Under the pieces are notes generated by a model that saw only the letters and a program-made list of their open reading frames with translations, did not search any database and was not told the origin of the DNA. The translations under genes were made by a program, and so were the position numbers. DNA of 64,000 bases, taken from the NCBI RefSeq assembly GCF_011745365.1, contig NW_024468914.1:1634001-1698000 (forward strand), read 5' to 3'. Positions 6,132 to 62,415 of the stretch are shown in pieces. Numbering within the stretch: the stretch's first letter is position 1; each line of letters opens with the position of its first letter. The stretch comes from Cryphonectria parasitica EP155. Lineage: Eukaryota; Ascomycota; Sordariomycetes; Diaporthales; Cryphonectriaceae.

Positions 6132-6410
6132 TTACTTCTGCGTCGAACAACCTCCGCTCGCCAAAGAAGATGTCCGTGCGCCGAGCCGGCTATTTCTTGG
6201 CCCCCTGTAGGCGACAAACCACCACCCCAGCACCCCCTTTGTCGGTTTTACTAACCATAACCCCCGGGCCTTCTTGGCGCTCGGTTTAGCGTGCCCAGGC
6301 CACCACCAGACCTCCCCGCCGTAAAGAGCGACCGGGAGTACGCAGGCCGAGGTAGCGAGTGCCGTGAGGTTGGGGGGGGAACCGTCCGAGACCCGGTTGG
6401 AGAGATTCAA
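6132..6410 (-). pseudogene. C-terminal end of a second Tad1-like LINE reverse transcriptase
   Basis: The frame contains TSACVLPVALYGGEVWWWPG, the conserved segment after the RT domain of Tad-like LINEs (usual form AVLPVALYGAEVWWPG). It lies upstream of ORF1 of the LINE at 4296-5498 on the same strand, so it must be the 3' end of a different copy. RNase H and poly-A tail are not visible. Confidence 0.65.
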
Positions 6411-52898: not shown

Positions 52899-53586
52899 CT
52901 GCTAAGCTTATTAAACTAGCTAAGCTTATTAGTTAGCGATAGTAGCGCTCTAAGCTTGCTGTTATTTGCACAGATCCTGAATACGCTGAATAAGCTGATA
53001 TACCTAATTAATTAGTTCTTCCTGAATAGAAGCGTATAAGAACGAAGAGATTCCTGGAGAAGCTATTGTATTCCATATTGCTTAAAGAGATAATACTGAA
53101 CTATTCTTGAACAAGAATTATCAAAATATAATAAGCATTGCAATAATCTGAAGATTCCTAAGTATACAAAGAGGTTTATGCTAATAAGAGCAGTATTGAA
53201 ATATTAAGATCTTGAATACGGAATTATACAAATCTTAGTAAGCAATGCAAGTATTTACTGCTTTTAGAGCTATTAGAATAGAGAGTAATCTGATACTTAG
53301 ATTAACAACTGAAGAGCTATATACTGAATTCATCTAATGATAGTAAATGTGTTCTTATATATTCAGCTCTTCAGTATGGATATGTTGGATAGCAATATAT
53401 CCAAGTTATTCTGCTAGCTCTGGATAGCACATATCCGAAGCTATCCTTCCTGATTAGCTGTGCTCATAATTCTAATCCCGGGTTATGTAATCAATGCTTT
53501 GTCAGAACATTGAGTCCTTGACATCTGATCCCTGTTACTCGTGCCCTGTTCTGTAACCTGCATGTTGAATGAGTCATAACATTACA

Positions 53587-53989
53587 GAATAAGGATATAC
53601 TCGGTTTTTTATATCTTGCTACTAGAACTAGCAGTAAAAGAAATACTAACAGATAATACTGTGAAAGTTGAAAACAATGAATCAGAATACGAGATAGAAA
53701 AGATTCTTAAGCATAGAAGCAATAATAATATGCTCGAATATCTCATCAAATGAAAAGATTACTCAGCAAGTGAAAACTCATGGGAACTGCAGAAGAATGT
53801 TGGAAATGCTATGAAAAAATTAATAAAATACTGGAAAACAAAAACTAGCTTTAATCCTACTATCATATTATTAGCAGTTATTTTAGCATTACAACAATAA
53901 CAAAAATCATTACCTAAGATCTCTCCGCTCCGGAATGAGAATCAGATGCTACAGCTTTACTCTTCAGAAGGAAAGGCTAACCAGATATG
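53587..53989 (+). pseudogene. Pol end with chromodomain of the 40176 Gypsy
   Basis: Continues the pol broken at 46167. A chromodomain follows (YEIEKILKHRSNNNMLEYLI, WELQKNVGNA; about 53690-53815). The last bases (53880-53989) run antisense into the end of the Cys-cluster gene that resumes at 61290. The chromovirus is inserted at 53990. Confidence 0.7.
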
Positions 53990-54299
53990 TGTCAGGGCTT
54001 GTATGCGCACAAAGGAAATAGGTGGCCCTTGCGACCCCTGGTGGCGGTCCAGGGCTGCTGCGAGGGCTTCGCTCCGAAGCAGCGCTCTCGTACGATGCCG
54101 CGTGGCCATCAGGCCATTGTCAGCCCATCTAGTCCAGGCCAATTGTGTACATAAGGGAAAGGGGAACAACAGGTCCAGCAGCGAAAAAGAGGAGGAGGGA
54201 GATAGGTTCAGTAGTCCCTTTGAATGGAAGCATCAACAGAGCGGCTTGGGAGCAGCTCACACCCCTTCACCTCACTTGTGTGCCCTTTTTACCCTGACA
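53990..54299 (+). repeat. 5' LTR of the chromovirus
   Basis: TGTCAGGGCTTG ... TTTTTACCCTGACA. A TGTACATAAG box at about 54146 may serve as a TATA-like element. Same family as the solo LTR at 17186-17496. Confidence 0.95.
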
Positions 54300-54348
54300 A
54301 GTCTGAACCTTCTACCCTTTCCCGGGAAGTGAGCCGTCGGGGGTGAGA

Positions 54349-55659
54349 ATGGCTCCGGTTACACGAAGCGGTAGCGCCGCTCCAGAGCGACAACCACAAC
54401 GAGCCGGCGACTCCGACCCCTCACAGACCCTAAGCCAACTCCCCTCTCAGACCCTCCCTCCAAGCTCGAACCCAGGCCCAGCCCACGAGAACCCCTCGCT
54501 CGAGGCACCAGCAGATATGGCCGGGTTGCAACGCCAGGAACGCGAGCTCGATCGTCAGTTGGAAGAAGAGGAGATACGGCAGCGGCTGAGGAGCAAGCGC
54601 GCTCGCTTAACACTACTCCAGAGCGGCGACACCGGCCCGGAGCCCCGGCCAGCTGGCCTCAGCCCTCTCAGCACCCCTCCTGTGCCGACCCCTTCAGAGG
54701 CACCCTCGACAGCGCCTGCACAGCTATATCGCGGCTTGCCAGCCCTCATATACAAGGGGGGATCGTACATGGAGTTGAAGACGTTCCTATACGACCTGCG
54801 GTACCATTTCGACATCTGCCGCTTGACCAATGAAGCGGATAAGGTGGGATATGCAGTGCGCTGCTTGAAAGACGATCCCAAGCGGGACTGGGTCAACTAT
54901 GTCGCCCGCCAGGAGGAGGGACAGCGTGAGCCTGTCCCTATCACCTTTGGAGAACTCGAGTCCTTCCTGGAGAACCAGTTGGCCGATCCCACCACCCGCG
55001 CTGTCACTGCTGCAGCGACGCTTGCAAGCATCGCTCAAGGCAAGGGCGAATCAGTGATAAGCTTCGTGCGCCGGTACCAGGAGGCGGAGCTTGAGTCTCC
55101 CTATCCTGACACCGAGCAACATCGCATAACGGCTGTTCTCACACGCCTCAGACCAGAGATCCGTATCGCCATCAGTGCGCAGACGACGCTCCCGAGCAGC
55201 TGGAATGCCCTGATTGGCTTAGCACGACGTATCGAATCCGCTCAAGGGACGGTTACCAACCCTCAACCTGCTGTCAAGACGCTCCTAAGCAGCAGCCCAG
55301 GAACTGCTACCCCCTCATATCGTGGCTGTTACAGCTGTGGCAAGCCAGGCCATATAGCAAGGGACTGCACAGCTCCGCGTGGTTCTCAGGCACTTCCCCT
55401 CACGGGCACTCAAGCTTCGTCGACGCGCCCTCAGACAGTTGATAACAACTTTGCCCGCTGTTACAACTGTCAGAAGACAGGCCATTTTGCTAACCTATGC
55501 CCGGAGCCTCGACGAAACGTCTGTTACACCTGCAATAAGCCAGGCCACTATAGTTCCAGTTGCCCAGAGGCAGAATGTCGGATTTGCAGGAAGAAGGGGC
55601 ATACAGCAAACAGCTGCGAGCAGGCCAACAAGGTGGCGACAGCCACGCAACAGAGCTGA
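54349..55659 (+). CDS. gag: Chromovirus Gag, 436 aa, four zinc knuckles
   Basis: ATG 54349 (MAPVTRSGSAAPERQ). Residues about 1-75 are Ser/Pro-rich; 70-100 form a charged coil; about 125-300 is the retrotransposon gag (capsid) domain with GGSYMELKTFLYDLRYHF and LADPTTRAVTAAATLASIAQ. Four CCHC knuckles (C-x2-C-x4-H-x4-C) start at residues 327, 371, 392 and 410: CYSCGKPGHIARDC, CYNCQKTGHFANLC, CYTCNKPGHYSSSC, CRICRKKGHTANSC. Most Gypsy gags have one or two, so four is unusual. Gag assembles the particle and packages the RNA. It ends in ...VATATQQS and UGA, and pol continues in the same frame. Confidence 0.95.
   Translation: MAPVTRSGSAAPERQPQRAGDSDPSQTLSQLPSQTLPPSSNPGPAHENPSLEAPADMAGLQRQERELDRQLEEEEIRQRLRSKRARLTLLQSGDTGPEPRPAGLSPLSTPPVPTPSEAPSTAPAQLYRGLPALIYKGGSYMELKTFLYDLRYHFDICRLTNEADKVGYAVRCLKDDPKRDWVNYVARQEEGQREPVPITFGELESFLENQLADPTTRAVTAAATLASIAQGKGESVISFVRRYQEAELESPYPDTEQHRITAVLTRLRPEIRIAISAQTTLPSSWNALIGLARRIESAQGTVTNPQPAVKTLLSSSPGTATPSYRGCYSCGKPGHIARDCTAPRGSQALPLTGTQASSTRPQTVDNNFARCYNCQKTGHFANLCPEPRRNVCYTCNKPGHYSSSCPEAECRICRKKGHTANSCEQANKVATATQQS
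55657..55659 (+). promoter_or_regulatory. In-frame UGA between gag and pol: candidate stop-codon readthrough site
   Basis: Gag ends CAG AGC TGA, and the same frame is open from the next codon (GGA GAC GCC ...) to 59391 with no ATG before the protease. Pol can therefore be made as Gag-Pol by reading through UGA, as in gammaretroviruses, rather than by frameshifting. A downstream stimulating structure was not worked out. Confidence 0.6.
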
Positions 55660-58600
55660 GGAGACGCCGAGCGGAAGCCTCGCCAGCTCACCGTCCACGC
55701 GAGGCTGTCGCTCGGAGACAAAAGGAAGCACACGTATGGGTTGGTCGACTCGGGGGCAGAGGAGAACCTGATCGACCGCCGCTTGGCCGAGGCTCTGGCG
55801 CAGAACCAACCTTTTGAAGCATGCCCCAGGCTCGTCTCAATTAACCAGGGAGCTATCATCACATACGGCAGCTGCTCTATCGATGTGAAGGTCACAGATA
55901 GCCTAGGAACATCCAGGAAGCAGCGCCATCGCTTCGTGGTAGCAGATATTGGCCAGCCCAGCCTGATCCTGGGGTTCCCGTGGCTTGAGGTCGTCAACCC
56001 GGTAATACGATGGGATATGAGGCAATGGAGGTTTCCCCTCCAGCGCTCCCAGATTCGGCTCTGCACTATGGCGAAAGGGCTTGAGGGAGCGAGGGTTGCC
56101 TTTGCGGCATATTACTACCCAAGCCCACCAGACCTACCCCTCGAGGCTAAGCCAGAAGACGCAGCGCCAGAGCTGCGCCTGCCCCCTGAGTACCGCGACT
56201 TCGTCGACCTATGCATGGAGGAGGCATCAAAGTCGCTCGCACCCCACACTGATATCGACCATCGCATCGAGCTCGAAGAGGGGGCAAGACCGCCCTGGGG
56301 GCCCTTGTACGCCCTCTCCGCGGCCGAACTAGAAGTGCTCAGGAAATACTTGGAGGAGATGCTAACCAGGGGATGGATTCGACCCTCGACCAGCCCTGCT
56401 GGCGCACCTATACTGTTCGTGCCAAAGAAAGGAGGCGAGCTGCGCCTCTGCGTGGACTACAGGGCGCTGAATCGGATTACACGCAAGGACCGCACCCCGT
56501 TGCCTTTGATTGCCGAGATCCTCGATCGACTGAGCCATGCACAAATCTATACCAAGCTCGACCTTAAGGATGCGTACCATCGGCTCCGAATCCGTGAAGG
56601 AGACGAGTGGAAGACCGCCTTCCGTACGAAATACGGCCATTTCGAGTACTGTGTTCTGCCCTTTGGCCTCACCAACGCCCCGGCCACGTTCCAGGCATAC
56701 ATCAACAAGGCGCTGGCGGGCCTGGTGGATGTGATCTGCATCGTCTACCTGGATGATATCCTGATCTACAGTGATGATGCCAAGCAGCATACAAGCCACG
56801 TTCGAGAGGTCTTGGAGCGGCTACGGCAATGGGGGCTATACCTCAACCTGAGGAAGTGCGAGTTCAACATACGACAGGTGGAATTCCTGGGCTTTGTGGT
56901 GTCCCCAGAAGGAATCAGCATGGACAAGGGGCGCGTCGCAGCTATTGCGCAGTGGCCGCTCCCGCGCACCGTCCGCGATATTCAGATATTTCTTGGGTTC
57001 ACTGGGTTCTACCGTCGATTTATACGGAACTACTCCAAGGTCGCTACACCATTGACCGACCTTTTGCGAGGCGGCGGCACAGGCGTAGTCGCGCTCTCGA
57101 ACCGCGCCCGAGTAGCTTTCAAGACCCTGATCATGCTCTTTACAACAGCCCCATTGCTACGCCACTACGATGCTGCATTACCAACGAGGGTTGAAACGGA
57201 TGCTTCTGCTTTCGCTATAGGAGCTGTGCTGGCCCAGCTGTTTCAAGGCCGCTGGCATCCAATTGCCTTTCGTTCAAAGAAGCTCTCTCCAACAGAAACA
57301 CGGTATGGCGTGGGGGATATCGAGCTGTTAGCTATTGTGGACGCTGTATCAAACTGGCAGCATTATTTGTTGTATCTGCCTGAGCCTGTACTCGTCCTCA
57401 CGGACCATCTCAACTTGCAGTACTGGGAGACTAAACAGAAGCTATCTGCCCGCCAGTTGCGCTGGCTGGACGATCTCAGCGTGTATAACCTCATCATCCA
57501 GTACCGCCCCGGCAAGTCCAACCCGGCTGATGGGTTGTCCAGGCGGCCAGATCACCAGGGGGGAGAGGGAGCTGAGCAGGAGCTGCGAAGCCCCAGCGAT
57601 TTCGTCACGATGGAGAATCTGGAGGATCAGAGAGGACCTTGTGTTGGTCGTATTCGAAGAGTGAGAGTGGAGCAAGCAGCAGACCTGAGTGTCTCCTGTT
57701 TTCGAGTGTGCGCCCTTCGCTATTCGAGCGAGGGCGCGGAGTTTGAGCAGACAGCAGACCTGAGTGTCTCCTGTTTTCGAGAGTGCGCCCTTCGCTATTC
57801 GAGCGAGGGCGCAGAGTTGAAGCGGAGTGTCCGCTTGGCAACTGATGTTGCTTGGGTGTCGGGTCGCGAACCGACCACCCTTCCGCGCCTAGCGGTGGAG
57901 CGAAGCGTGGCAACGGCGCCGGAGCAGCTTGCAGAGCCAATGAGGGCGCATCTGCTACGACTGCAACAAGAAGACGTTTTTGTTCAGACGGAAGCTTGGC
58001 GCAAGAGGCGAACACGCAGCTCTACAGCCGGTGTGGAGCTATGGCAAGTCATCGAGGGCTTGCTATGCTTCAGGGGACGTGTATTTGTGCCAAACCATCC
58101 ATCAACTCGCAAGGAGCTTTTGGAGGCGTACCATGATGATCCAACAGCCGGCCATCTCGGCATAGCTAAGTCCACTAAGATGATTTCTCGTTACTACTAT
58201 TGGGATGCGTTAGCTAAGGATATGAAGAAGCATATTAACACGTGTGCAGTGTGCCAGCGGATAAAAACGAGGAAACAACGCCCATACGGCCTGCTCAGTC
58301 CCTTACCACCAGCAACTCGCCCATGGGCCGAGATATCAATGGACTTTATCACCGGTCTGCCCGGGTCCATCGGTCTCTACAATAAGGCTTACGATGCTAT
58401 CCTGGTGATCGTCGACAGATACTCGAAGTACGCCCTGTACATTCCGACAACAACACGGCTCACAAGCAGCGGCCTAGCAGATATCATGCTGTGGCACGTG
58501 TATCAGTTCTACGGCATTCCTGAGGGCATTGTGTCAGACAGAGGGAGCCTCTTTACAAGCCACTTCTGGACTGACTTCTGCTTCCACCTGGGGACCAAGC

Positions 58601-59391
58601 GGCGCCTGAGCACTGCGTTTCACCCCCAAACAGATGGACAGACCGAGCGGCAGAACCAGAACCTCGAACAATACCTCCGCGCTTATTGCAGCCTTTCTCA
58701 AGCGGATTGGGCGCGGCGCCTACCCCTTGCACAGGCAGCGTATAACAGCGCAGACCATAGCGGGACAGGATCATCACCTGCTATGTTGCTCTACGGATTC
58801 CAACCAACAAAACCGACAGATATCAACACGCAGCGCCCAAGCTACGTCCCCAAGGTCTCAGAGCGGCTCGAAGACCTCGCCAAGGCTCGTGAGGAGGCTC
58901 AGGAAAGCCTCAACCATGCAAGACAAGCATACACCAGGTGGTACAACAAACGCCATACCGATAAAAGATTCTCCCTTGGCGACCTCGTCCTCGTCTCAGC
59001 CAGGCATTTACGCCAAAAAGGCGTCAACAATAAACTGGCAAACAAATACCTTGGCCCTTTTCGAGTGCTGGAGATCGTGGGAGCGCATGGACTGGCGTAC
59101 AAGCTCGAATTGCCAGCGAAATACAAGGTCCACAATGTCTTTCCAATCGTGGCCCTGAAGAACTTCAATAAACGAGATGGAGAAGAGCTCGAGGCGCACC
59201 CTGACATCGACCTCGAGGAAGAGGCGCGTTGGGAGGTGGAGGCTATTCTGGCACACCGAGGGCCACCTAGGAACCGCCAATTCCTCATACATTGGAAGGG
59301 ATATAGCAGCGATGAGGATTCATGGGAACCACGGGCATTTATTGACGACGGACCATTGATCAAAGAATACGAAGCACGGTTGAAGCGGTAA
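55660..59391 (+). CDS. pol: Chromovirus Pol: protease, RT, RNase H, integrase, chromodomain; 1243 codons after the UGA
   Basis: Numbering from the codon after UGA. Protease: LTVHARL then LVDSGAEENLID (active Asp at 30). RT: LRLCVDYRALNRIT, TKLDLKDAYHRLRI, FGLTNAPATFQ and catalytic YLDD at 363-366. RNase H: ETDASAFAIGAVLAQ (Asp 514) and LLAIVDAVSNWQHY. Spacer (about 670-755) with two 25-residue repeats. Integrase: H2C2 zinc motif (GHLGIAKS ... CAVCQ, 832-865), D895, D960 and E996 (D-35-E spacing), and TAFHPQTDGQTERQNQNLEQ. Chromodomain 1191-1240 (WEVEAILAHR ... FLIHWKGYSSDEDSWEP), which would steer integration to methylated-H3K9 heterochromatin. All catalytic residues are present and no frame break is seen. 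Confidence 0.95.
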   Translation, partial: GDAERKPRQLTVHARLSLGDKRKHTYGLVDSGAEENLIDRRLAEALAQNQPFEACPRLVSINQGAIITYGSCSIDVKVTDSLGTSRKQRHRFVVADIGQPSLILGFPWLEVVNPVIRWDMRQWRFPLQRSQIRLCTMAKGLEGARVAFAAYYYPSPPDLPLEAKPEDAAPELRLPPEYRDFVDLCMEEASKSLAPHTDIDHRIELEEGARPPWGPLYALSAAELEVLRKYLEEMLTRGWIRPSTSPAGAPILFVPKKGGELRLCVDYRALNRITRKDRTPLPLIAEILDRLSHAQIYTKLDLKDAYHRLRIREGDEWKTAFRTKYGHFEYCVLPFGLTNAPATFQAYINKALAGLVDVICIVYLDDILIYSDDAKQHTSHVREVLERLRQWGLYLNLRKCEFNIRQVEFLGFVVSPEGISMDKGRVAAIAQWPLPRTVRDIQIFLGFTGFYRRFIRNYSKVATPLTDLLRGGGTGVVALSNRARVAFKTLIMLFTTAPLLRHYDAALPTRVETDASAFAIGAVLAQLFQGRWHPIAFRSKKLSPTETRYGVGDIELLAIVDAVSNWQHYLLYLPEPVLVLTDHLNLQYWETKQKLSARQLRWLDDLSVYNLIIQYRPGKSNPADGLSRRPDHQGGEGAEQELRSPSDFVTMENLEDQRGPCVGRIRRVRVEQAADLSVSCFRVCALRYSSEGAEFEQTADLSVSCFRECALRYSSEGAELKRSVRLATDVAWVSGREPTTLPRLAVERSVATAPEQLAEPMRAHLLRLQQEDVFVQTEAWRKRRTRSSTAGVELWQVIEGLLCFRGRVFVPNHPSTRKELLEAYHDDPTAGHLGIAKSTKMISRYYYWDALAKDMKKHINTCAVCQRIKTRKQRPYGLLSPLPPATRPWAEISMDFITGLPGSIGLYNKAYDAILVIVDRYSKYALYIPTTTRLTSSGLADIMLWHVYQFYGIPEGIVSDRGSLFTSHFWTDFCFHLGTKRRLSTAFHPQTDGQTERQNQNLEQYLRAYCSLSQADWARRLPLAQAAYNSADHSGTGSSPAMLLYGFQPTKPTDINTQRPSYVPKVSERLEDLAKAREEAQESLNHARQAYTRWYNKRHTDKRFSLGDLVLVSARHLRQKGVNNKLANKYLGPFRVLEIVGAHGLAYKLELPAKYKVHNVFPIVALKNFNKRDGEELEAHPDIDLEEEARWEVEAILAHRGPPRNRQFLIHWKGYSSDEDSWEPRAFIDDGPLIKEYEARLKR
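57670..57819 (+). repeat. Two in-frame 75-bp tandem repeats in the pol RNase H-integrase spacer
   Basis: Units 57670-57744 and 57745-57819 each encode EQ-ADLSVSCFR-CALRYS plus SEGAE. They differ at few positions. Homologous, antisense and RIP-mutated copies form an array at 26358-26650. Confidence 0.9.
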
Positions 59392-59553
59392 CAACGCAGC
59401 GCGGAAGCTGCTCGGTCTTTGATTGGAAAACTAAAAACCCTTATATGGCCCACCCACCCGGGGAGTTAGCGACGCCCCTGCGTCGTGGCAATCAGTGCCA
59501 GTTATTTCCCACGCTGTAAAAGCGCGCCCACCCACCCAGGGTTTTTAAAGAGG

Positions 59554-60482
59554 TTACCCTCCCTCTTCGGGAGCCGCCTCAGAAGGCTTGCGAGCTGCCT
59601 CGGCCAGCGTCTCCAGAGCGCTGACACCGCGCCGAAGCAGCGACATCAACTCCCCGCTCATAACAGGGGCAGGAGACGCGCCGACCACCGGCGCAGGAGC
59701 AGCGCCCACAGAGCGCACCAGCCGGAGGACACCCTGCAAGTCCTCGTCGGTCGGCTCCCGACCAAAGGAGCAGGCATTGTCCAGGGCCAAACCCGCCTCG
59801 TAAGGAAGCTATAGTGGCTTGTGAGCAGCGCGAAAGACAAGAGGGAGCAGGGGTAATACTACTCACGGGCTGGCAGGAGTGGTTGCCGCGAGCACACCGA
59901 AAACAACGGGCACCGGAGCCTATGACGAATCAATATGAGGATTTGTAAGGCAAGGAAACTGGCGCACCTGACTGGTCCCGGCACCGGACCTCAGGCTCCT
60001 GGATGCGGCGACGCACGCACCCCTGGCACCAGCCGGCGGGGGGACGCACCGCACCCGGTCCCTCGGGGACCTTCTTCCTCTTGACGGCCTAGCAACGTCA
60101 GCGCGGCGCTGTATACACGATATATATGAGTACTCACGGAGGCCGTGGGAGTGACGGGAGGCGGGGCCTCCGGGGCAGGAGTCTCGGGAGACTCGAGGGG
60201 GGGCGAGAGAGAGGGCGAGGGCGAGGGAGAGGCCCTCTTGCGCTTCTTGCTGGCGGGGGCCTTGCGGCCACCACGCCGACCGCCGCGGCGGCCACGAGAG
60301 GGAGAGGACGCGGGAGCAGCGGGGGCGCCCGAGGGCAGAGGGTGGCGAGGAGGGGGCACCGCGTCAACAGCGCCGGAGGAGGCATTGCCAGCCTCCGAGG
60401 CCTCAGGGGCGATCTGACCCTCAGAGACCTCAGGGGCCGGCGCAGCCTCCCCAGACGCGTTGACAGCAGTAAAAGGAGACAT
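59554..60482 (-). CDS. Antisense spliced gene in the chromovirus 3' region: Zn2Cys6-like protein, 257 aa
   Basis: Four exons on the strand opposite to pol: 60482-60138 (ATG 60482), 60088-59968, 59919-59867, 59808-59554 (TAA). The introns (60137-60089, 49 nt; 59967-59920, 48 nt; 59866-59809, 58 nt) have GTGAGT, GTGCGC and GTGAGT donors, TAG acceptors and, in the first, a GCTGAC branch; phases match throughout. The N-terminus is Ala/Pro/Ser-rich and acidic, then SRGRRGGRRGGRK and ASKKRKR (likely nuclear signals). A six-Cys motif follows (WCQGC ... RCFRCARGNHSC; C-x2-C-x11-C-x9-C-x2-C-x6-C), resembling Zn2Cys6 with wider spacing. The end is a Leu-rich helix (SGELMSLLRRGVSALETLAE). It may extend upstream in frame through a CAG-rich exon (60583-60535) and an exon starting in the 3' LTR (61094-60817). 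Role unknown; DNA binding or regulation is inference. Confidence 0.7.
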
Positions 60483-60534
60483 CTGCGACGAATCAGCTTC
60501 CACGCGATGCCTCAGAGGATAGGGATACACGTAC

Positions 60535-60543
60535 CGTGCTGTT

Positions 60544-60575
<32 letters not shown>

Positions 60576-60583
60576 TGTGGTGG
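60535..60583 (-). other. Possible additional upstream exon with CAG/CAA run
   Basis: On the minus strand a pyrimidine-rich TTTCCTCAG acceptor precedes a 49-base CCACCACAGCAGCAG... segment ending at a GTACGTG donor (intron 60534-60483, CGCAG acceptor). It fits in frame with the ATG at 60482 and with an upstream segment ending at a GTAAGT donor (60816) whose frame is open from ATG 61094 inside the 3' LTR. If used, the protein gains 109 residues. Confidence 0.4.
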
Positions 60584-60958
60584 CTGAGGAAAGGGAAAAA
60601 CAGAAAAGAGAGGGGGGTTCAGGCGCGAGGGCGAAATAGGGGGCAACAGTGCCCCACTAGCGCGCGCACCCCAGGCAACCCTGTTGTCTGGCCCTAGAAG
60701 CTATTCCGAGATCGCGGTAGCATGGATGACCGCGCCAAGCTGCGCAGTCTTCGTGACCACGCCGCGTCTGCGCTGCGCCAGCGCTGGGGCAACCTTCACG
60801 ACATCACATGACTTACCGGCGGAGGAAAACTTGGCCCTCTAGGGCGAGGCACCCCAACAACAAGGACCAACTGACGAGAGGACTATTGACAAGTATGAAG
60901 GGACCTGTGGGTCTGCGTGGGAGCAGCTCGGGCGCGTAGTTCCTGGGGACAGGAACCT

Positions 60959-60970
60959 GGAAGAGGGAGG
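60959..60970 (+). other. Polypurine tract GGAAGAGGGAGG before the 3' LTR
   Basis: Twelve purines end four bases before the 3' LTR, the expected plus-strand priming site for reverse transcription. The primer-binding site after the 5' LTR (from 54300, AGTCTGAACC) does not match a tRNA end that I recognise. Confidence 0.65.
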
Positions 60971-60974
60971 ATTC

Positions 60975-61284
60975 TGTCAGGGCTTGTATGCGCACAAAGG
61001 AAATAGGTGGCCCTTGCGACCCCTGGTGGCGGTCCAGGGCTGCTGCGAGGGCTTCGCTCCGAAGCAGCGCTCTCGTACGATGCCGCGTGGCCATCAGGCC
61101 ATTGTCAGCCCATCTAGTCCAGGCCAATTGTGTACATAAGGGAAAGGGGAACAACAGGTCCAGCAGCGAAAAAGAGGAGGAGGGAGATAGGTTCAGTAGT
61201 CCCTTTGAATGGAAGCATCAACAGAGCGGCTTGGGAGCAGCTCACACCCCTTCACCTCACTTGTGTGCCCTTTTTACCCTGACA
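60975..61284 (+). repeat. 3' LTR of the chromovirus
   Basis: Read base by base against 53990-54299 and no difference was noticed. Followed by ATATG. Confidence 0.95.
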
Positions 61285-61761
61285 ATATGCTAGAATCAAG
61301 AGCTAAGAAACTCCAATCGATAATCTCAAGATATTTCTGAGATATCAGACAAGTCTTCTCCTTACGAAGACTGCAATTCTTCTCATTAGCGAATCCCTTT
61401 AAGAAATTAAAGCTATAACGAATCATTTTAGCAGCTTGCTTCTCCAACAGCCTTCGCTATTTCCATGTATGATTAAGATAAGCCTGCAATGCTAGCAAGG
61501 CTTGTAAGGCAGCAGCGTTTGCTAACTCTGCCTTAGCTTCTTTGCTTAAAATCTTGCACTTTTTACAAATCAAATGCTTTGCTAAAAAAGAAAATTAGTA
61601 ATTACAGAGAATATTAAGAAACGAAGAAACCAATCAGCAGAAGCTGAGAAACAATCAGTATTACAGCTTTGATTCAGAGAAATACACTCCCTACAACGAG
61701 AAGAGTTTTCGATAAAATAACAGAAAGCTCCCATCTTCCAATAATAAGCACAAGCAAGCAT
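61285..61761 (-). pseudogene. Antisense Zn2Cys6-like/coiled-coil gene of the 40176 Gypsy, split by the chromovirus
   Basis: ATG 61761 begins MLACAYYWKMGAFCYF. Cluster spacing is C-x2-[C to Y]-x6-C-x8-C-x2-C-x6-C, the Zn2Cys6 consensus if Tyr 8 was Cys. A frame change and stops follow, then a coiled-coil part (KEAKAELANAAALQALLALQ, about 61530-61470) and an acidic-aromatic IIDWSFLALDSS end near 61300. The last codons lie beyond the chromovirus at 53989 and below. It is opposite to pol and just inside the 3' LTR. Confidence 0.55.
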
Positions 61762-61949: not shown

Positions 61950-62415
61950 TATTATAATCTATTCAATATGCAGATTATTAGCTAGAATATCCGGAATAAT
62001 TATTCAAAAGATAGAAAAGAATTCAATATCTTAAGAACTAAAGCTTATATAAGCAAGAGTTAGAATTATAGAATCAGGATAAATCAGTAGCTGATTCATG
62101 ATAATTCGAATCAGTTGGATTACTCAGGTAATCCAAGTGATTCAATAACCAATACTATCAACAGAACTGAAGAGCTGAATATATAAGAATATATTCATTC
62201 CCATTAGATAGATCTTGTATATAGCTCTTCAGTTATCAATCTAAGTATTAGATTACTCTCTATTCTGATAGCTCCAAAAGCAGTGAATACTTGCATCACT
62301 TACTAAGACTTGTATGGTTCCGTATTCAAGGACTTGATACTTTGATATCGCTCTTGTTAGCATAAACCCTCTTTGTATACTTTGGAATCTTCGGATTGCT
62401 GCAGTGCTCATTACA
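61950..62415 (+). repeat. 3' LTR of the 40176 Gypsy
   Basis: 466 bp, the same length as 40176-40641, and better preserved at its end (GCTGCAGTGCTCATTACA). Followed by TCAAG at 62416-62420. Confidence 0.85.

Follow-up and report, generated by a model that had tools for sequence, protein, structure and literature searches.

Antisense genes between pol and the 3' LTR are known from plant retrotransposons, where gene23 of Grande and the frames of RIRE2, Retand (with a TRP28 domain) and PvRetro13 have been described (PMC7264820, PMC11963269, in the portions of both papers available to us). These ORFs share place and orientation with the fungal gene described here, they occur in all or most copies of their elements, and some of their products are nuclear or predicted to bind DNA, their role being unknown (PMC7264820, PMC11963269, same portions). 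The systems differ in that the former reside in plant elements, Retand belonging to a non-chromovirus lineage, whereas we are concerned with a fungal chromovirus and a copia family. Three introns, a six-cysteine core and exchanged versions are features of the fungal gene. In the available text of PMC7264820 and PMC11963269 the word "intron" occurs zero times and no introns are described; "zinc finger" occurs zero times in that of the former, and "zinc" zero times in that of the latter. The available part of PMC7264820 does call for a search for spliced antisense transcripts.

A second set of comparable genes is found in retroviruses. HBZ of HTLV-1 and APH-2, APH-3 and APH-4 are antisense genes that start from the 3' LTR, are spliced and have nuclear forms, and HBZ, APH-3 and APH-4 lower transcription from the 5' LTR (PMC10186651, in the excerpts available). 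The fungal gene resembles HBZ in being antisense, in lying at the 3' end of an LTR element and, to judge from the evolutionary phase of its substitutions, in probably being spliced. HBZ has a bZIP domain, and we liken the fungal gene to it as the nearest working model for function, the plant antisense frames being the closest in kind.

Additional frames have been noted in other elements as well. For fungal or plant chromoviruses, a figure legend in PMC2864245 mentions one further ORF to which no function is assigned, and the title of PMC5408684, on LTR retrotransposons of bdelloid rotifers, reports ORFs common to diverse retroelement types. The rotifer ORFs differ from the present case, being of the env, DEDDy and GDSL types, and the portion of that paper available describes no antisense spliced cysteine-rich gene. 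In the available text of PMC4182546, which deals with transposon transcripts of C. parasitica, "antisense" occurs zero times. Our literature search, which covered titles, the beginnings of abstracts and few subscription papers, found no description of a cysteine-rich, spliced gene on the antisense strand of a fungal LTR element. Plant elements and retroviruses are known to have antisense genes in this position; the one considered here is fungal, apparently spliced, exchangeable, and represented in two superfamilies.

The host element and its antisense gene

The window, by which we mean the whole stretch of 64,000 nucleotides that was analyzed, comes from Cryphonectria parasitica EP155, the chestnut blight fungus, whose genome (43.8 Mb, 17 contigs) was also searched. 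It holds a complete LTR retrotransposon of 7.3 kb at 53990-61284, a Ty3/gypsy chromovirus with RT, RNase H and integrase in order, followed by a C-terminal chromodomain, between the LTRs. An earlier, sequence-only reading of the window had called this element a young chromovirus, which agrees with its identical LTRs, with ATATG on both sides and with a pol that ends in a chromodomain. The features of the element and of its antisense gene are the following.

53985..53989, target site duplication ATATG, left
53990..54299, plus strand, 5' LTR, 310 bp, TGTCAG...CTGACA, identical to the 3' LTR
54307..55659, plus strand, gag open frame with three CCHC zinc-knuckle stretches
55660..59391, plus strand, pol open frame with RT, RNase H and integrase, and a weak protease-like match at its start
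59230..59379, plus strand, chromodomain ending pol (PF00385, residues 1191-1240)
59554..59808, minus strand, exon 4, ending in TAA
59809..59866, minus strand, intron 3, 58 nt, GT...AG
59867..59919, minus strand, exon 3, with the last three core cysteines (residues 161, 164, 171)
59920..59967, minus strand, intron 2, 48 nt, GT...AG
59968..60088, minus strand, exon 2, with the first three core cysteines (residues 136, 139, 151)
60089..60137, minus strand, intron 1, 49 nt, GT...AG, at the same position in a diverged remnant (L043)
60138..60482, minus strand, exon 1, with the ATG at 60482 and basic stretches, under coding constraint
60483..60974, minus strand, 492 bp from the ATG of the gene to the 3' LTR, with a CAG/CAA repeat and a candidate 5'-UTR intron (60534-60483)
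60975..61284, plus strand, 3' LTR
61285..61289, target site duplication ATATG, right

The antisense gene runs from 60482 to 59554, beyond the end of pol (stop at 59391) and short of the 3' LTR. Its four exons join in frame to 774 nt, i.e. 257 amino acids and TAA, and each of its introns, which measure 49, 48 and 58 nt, begins with GT and ends with AG, exactly as the sequence-only reading had claimed; the spliced protein also gave the cysteine spacing stated there, C-x2-C-x11-C-x9-C-x2-C-x6-C. A coding frame on the opposite strand between pol and the 3' LTR is the placement of an antisense aORF-3R. The gene and pol are convergent, with 162 bp between them. The 492 bp on the other side are the likely place of an antisense leader or promoter. 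Within them the CAG/CAA repeat occupies 60537-60578, upstream of the ATG, and several copies of the element differ by 3 or 6 bp at or beside it. Upstream exons reaching into the 3' LTR were considered as well; candidate splice sites are present, but the joined frame fails to enter the 257-aa frame, and exons upstream of that frame would be 5'-UTR exons at most.

Two further observations concern the surroundings of the gene. Inverted arms of 203 bp (53173-53375 and 62166-62368, 85% complementary) enclose the chromovirus, and perhaps represent an older inverted-repeat element into which it was inserted. In the pol frame, a 75-bp tandem duplication (94%) is found at 57670-57818, between RNase H and integrase.

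The encoded protein was earlier labeled Zn2Cys6-like, and this label we do not support. Proteins of the Zn2Cys6 (Zn_clus) family have the spacing C-x2-C-x6-C-x5-12-C-x2-C-x6-8-C. The likeness consists of six cysteines in two groups of three, of basic stretches and of the fungal host; the second and third cysteines, however, are 11 residues apart here and 12 apart in a copia relative (see below), instead of 6, and the Zn_clus profile (PF00172) did not match the spliced protein at E up to 1, nor did it at E up to 10, with four relatives included. A search of the genome with that profile gave 143 places among the best 150 of 199 candidates, none of which corresponds to these loci. By itself this search could miss the gypsy gene, because an intron splits its core; the copia core is unsplit. 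Sequence searches of Pfam, NCBIfam and PDB named no family. Three protein searches (1678 and 396 candidates, and the best 7991 by shared words) found no homologue outside C. parasitica; they returned only P0001 and P0002, or nothing, the method being limited to proteins that share short words. A structure predicted for P0001 from four sequences has low confidence, with a mean pLDDT of 58.6 and, by tens of residues, 68-81 around the cysteines, and comparison of this low-confidence fold gave nothing usable. The predicted 257-aa protein is basic, has six cysteines and probably binds zinc. Its basic stretches, its composition and the analogies above suggest that it may be nuclear, and from composition and analogy it might bind DNA.

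Copies of the element and constraint on the spliced frame

The gene region is matched 31 times across the genome. Three copies are near-identical, namely the window element, L009 (100% over 7295 bp) and L010 (99.4%); their target site duplications differ, and each retains all three introns, which directly supports the earlier proposal that the antisense introns survive retrotransposition. A survey based on RT recognized 20 full-length matches of the family (at least 55% identity) among the best 90 of 534 candidates, and in 18 of these the gene lies on the opposite strand, 1954-1969 bp downstream of RT. For the other two the fitting gene match is 9267 bp and, calculated by hand, 9279 bp away, and in the latter a nested gene copy lies nearer, at 6175. 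These distances are as if about 7.3 kb of inserted DNA, i.e. one element, intervened; nesting of this kind is seen in L020/L022 and presumed for the other match. Seven further RT matches, partial or weaker, have the gene at 1954-2351 bp in three cases and at 9655 bp in one, and lack it in three. Judged from RT matches among the best 90 of 534 candidates, all or most members of the family thus carry the gene, as is the case for aORF-3R genes. In L020/L022 (C8:3217162-3229585) one family copy sits inside the pol of another.

Most copies are ruined by RIP and have stop codons in their reading frames, as in their pol. In L025, for example, 400 of the 402 differences located after pol are C-to-T or G-to-A, the mark of RIP. 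The expectation that other copies keep the frame open is borne out by the three intact copies and fails in the older ones, which carry stops in the RIP pattern, as does pol. Throughout L011-L028, C-to-T changes are found at CA, CC and CG, with fewer at CT (raw counts, not normalized for dinucleotide frequency). RIP in Neurospora acts at CpA, and the context in L011-L028 looks broader.

Two lines of evidence, both from comparison of copies, bear on coding and splicing. First, the copies fall into two groups, A (with the window) and B, assigned from transversions among 20 copies fetched (L009-L028); ten of the 31 gene-region matches were not fetched whole, one of them being obtained in part (L043/L044). 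The counts use 13 A copies, 5 B copies and the window, after removal of L015, which aligned in two pieces, and L022, whose best match is the same element as that of L020. We counted a site if all B copies differed from the window there by a change that RIP does not produce, while every A copy equaled the window or its RIP product. With at least 3 B copies required this gave 44 sites, and with at least 2 B copies and another alignment 43. The 44 fixed differences comprise 30 exon and 14 intron sites. In the spliced frame the exon sites fall on codon positions 1, 2 and 3 as 7, 3 and 20 (binomial P 1.9e-4). Introns 1 and 3 shift the phase, so that without splicing no codon position receives more than 12 of the 30 sites. 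Of the 30 changes, 12 are nonsynonymous, whereas the same base changes would lead one to expect 20.4 (P 0.0009). Neutral drift, with dN/dS near 1, had been named beforehand as speaking against a gene; the omega-like ratio obtained was 0.31. The introns diverge more than the exons (14 sites in 155 vs 30 in 774; Fisher P 0.011), and none of the 14 intron sites hits a GT/AG splice dinucleotide.

Secondly, the diverged remnant L043/L044 has introns 1 and 2 at the same places, again GT...AG, and its intron 2 is otherwise dissimilar. In the gap-free pieces of its exons 2 and 3, third positions hold 12 of 20 differences (12/33 vs 8/65, P 0.007). The remnant has lost the first cysteine pair, and its sequence stops within exon 3. 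Intron 1, unlike intron 2, is nearly identical in L043 over its 3' part (60089-60116). The A/B substitutions support both coding and splicing of the antisense gene, in a test made up of 30 exon changes in 5 B copies, 13 A copies and the window. This is evolutionary evidence, independent of RNA data.

Exchange of the gene as a block and its relatives

The differences between versions A and B are confined to one stretch.

59584..60348, minus strand, block differing between versions A and B, which holds every fixed non-RIP difference found over the element

The remaining parts of the element, namely gag and pol, the LTRs, the 492-bp leader and the 162-bp spacer, yielded no fixed A/B difference (7293 of 7295 sites, with at least 2 B copies). 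The B copies used are L012, L017, L020, L023 and L027, and at least 3 further copies are of this version, judged by their length of 941 bp. Outside the gene, non-RIP differences are few per copy, from 0 in L009 to 21 in L010, and RIP may hide some. Several of these backbone polymorphisms are common to both groups; those at 60412 and 60826, for instance, both occur in 5 of the A copies and 4 of the B copies. Since the differences are confined to the gene and the backbone polymorphisms are shared, the gene was exchanged as a block. The same pattern indicates that A and B are older than the spread of the backbone, and that one was exchanged into the element of the other. The two versions were thus swapped between elements otherwise nearly identical, a result that is new here; either template switching in the course of reverse transcription or gene conversion could have brought this about.

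Four places in the genome match the antisense protein distantly (44% over 51 residues, E 0.003). All four belong to a Ty1/copia family, one copy of which (L037/L038) has an RVT_2 pol and 168-bp LTRs that are 99.4% identical. Its gene is likewise antisense, between pol and the 3' LTR, and its three exons give 366 amino acids with the core C-x2-C-x12-C-x10-C-x2-C-x5-C. The 3' end of this gene is uncertain, as two deposited proteins differ there from our reading and from each other. Two proteins deposited from Cryphonectria parasitica EP155 match one element of the genome (100% and 99% identity). The copia gene region is matched 25 times, some of the matches being fragments. A hAT dimerization domain is found near the copia element, at L037 2435-2746.

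The gypsy and copia cores have in common GAVR, C-x-G-C, DQ, ARC-x-RC and a final P-x-P. Their alignment scores 83, against 28.9 ± 5.9 for shuffles with the cysteines fixed, of which 0 of 2000 reach it. This shows homology of the two cores beyond their cysteine composition, a relationship that is new here.

Weaker relatives were also examined. L040 is 41% identical to the copia protein over 58 residues, and its match to the gypsy protein is weak when the cysteines are kept (30 of 2000 shuffles as good); it adjoins remnants that resemble, by eye, a copia pol on the opposite strand. L042, a weak match, fails against shuffles, of which 634 of 2000 were as good, and L041 is a weak match from the same genome search. 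In L045, chosen as the 3' end of a sister gypsy family, no retroelement frame was recognized by eye. At L040 7624-9900 there are two long frames, one with a P-loop-like stretch and the other with tandem repeats, which by eye are reminiscent of a NACHT-type protein.

Possible role of the gene

With its signs of selection, two swapped versions and a copia relative, the gene looks like a working accessory gene. We therefore favor, on balance, the explanation that it is functional and not a passenger, that is, that a spliced antisense transcript gives a 257-aa protein which acts on its own element, and that the gene is an exchangeable block. According to this explanation the transcript would start in the stretch that separates 60482 from the 3' LTR, or in the LTR itself, and would be spliced three times to yield a basic, six-cysteine and presumably nuclear protein. 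New copies would keep the gene because antisense introns stay unspliced in the genomic RNA. The protein would most likely act back on the transcription, copy number or chromatin state of the element, by analogy with HBZ in HTLV-1. Neither the block exchange nor the copia homologue proves that the gene encodes a regulator pressed to alter its specificity, but both are in keeping with one.

The original observation of an antisense gene was accordingly right, and even understated. What emerges is a clear fungal example of LTR retrotransposons that carry an accessory gene, antisense and with introns. The copia homologue suggests that such genes moved between superfamilies or were recruited more than once. 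Moreover, the two natural versions in one backbone make an old question, the role of antisense genes in LTR elements, directly testable.

A more specific form of the accessory-gene explanation, which we put forward tentatively and hold to be rather unlikely, is that the gene serves as a specificity cassette, with a logic like that of the immunity region of temperate phages. A regulator acting on its own element would exist in several versions, and these would pass as a block from one near-identical element to another and also between the Ty3 and Ty1 superfamilies; an element with a new version would escape control by resident copies of the old one.

It could also be hypothesized that the antisense transcript itself is what works, pairing with the genomic RNA and feeding silencing or copy-number control, and that the frame is incidental. 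PMC7264820, in the part available, discusses such roles of antisense transcripts in other elements, and the convergence of gene and pol at a distance of 162 bp would suit such a role. However, the codon-position and nonsynonymous constraint tracks the spliced protein frame, and a homologous protein core, alike beyond cysteine composition, is found at the same place in copia. We consider this explanation improbable, and an RNA role may exist in addition to the protein.

To the same slight degree we credit the idea that the gene is a functionless passenger, a piece of a host gene captured by an ancestral element, in which case the A/B constraint would predate capture and stem from the host gene. 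A host source is conceivable given L039 (C6:1953139), a single-copy relative that is 57% identical to the copia protein and scores 69 against the gypsy protein (shuffles 32.1 ± 6.5, 0 of 2000 reaching it), and near which no RT frame was recognized by eye within about 4.6 kb. Yet A and B occur in the same element with shared backbone polymorphisms, so that two captures or an exchange would be needed anyway; moreover, the family has retained the gene, and the copia elements bear a counterpart in the same position.

Least probable, in our view, is that the gene is a small selfish unit that rides in LTR elements of different superfamilies and spreads between them by recombination, as the block exchange and the homologues in both gypsy and copia families might suggest. 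Against it, an unsystematic inspection showed no terminal repeats at the block edges, and the flanks on both sides of the block are the element's own sequence.
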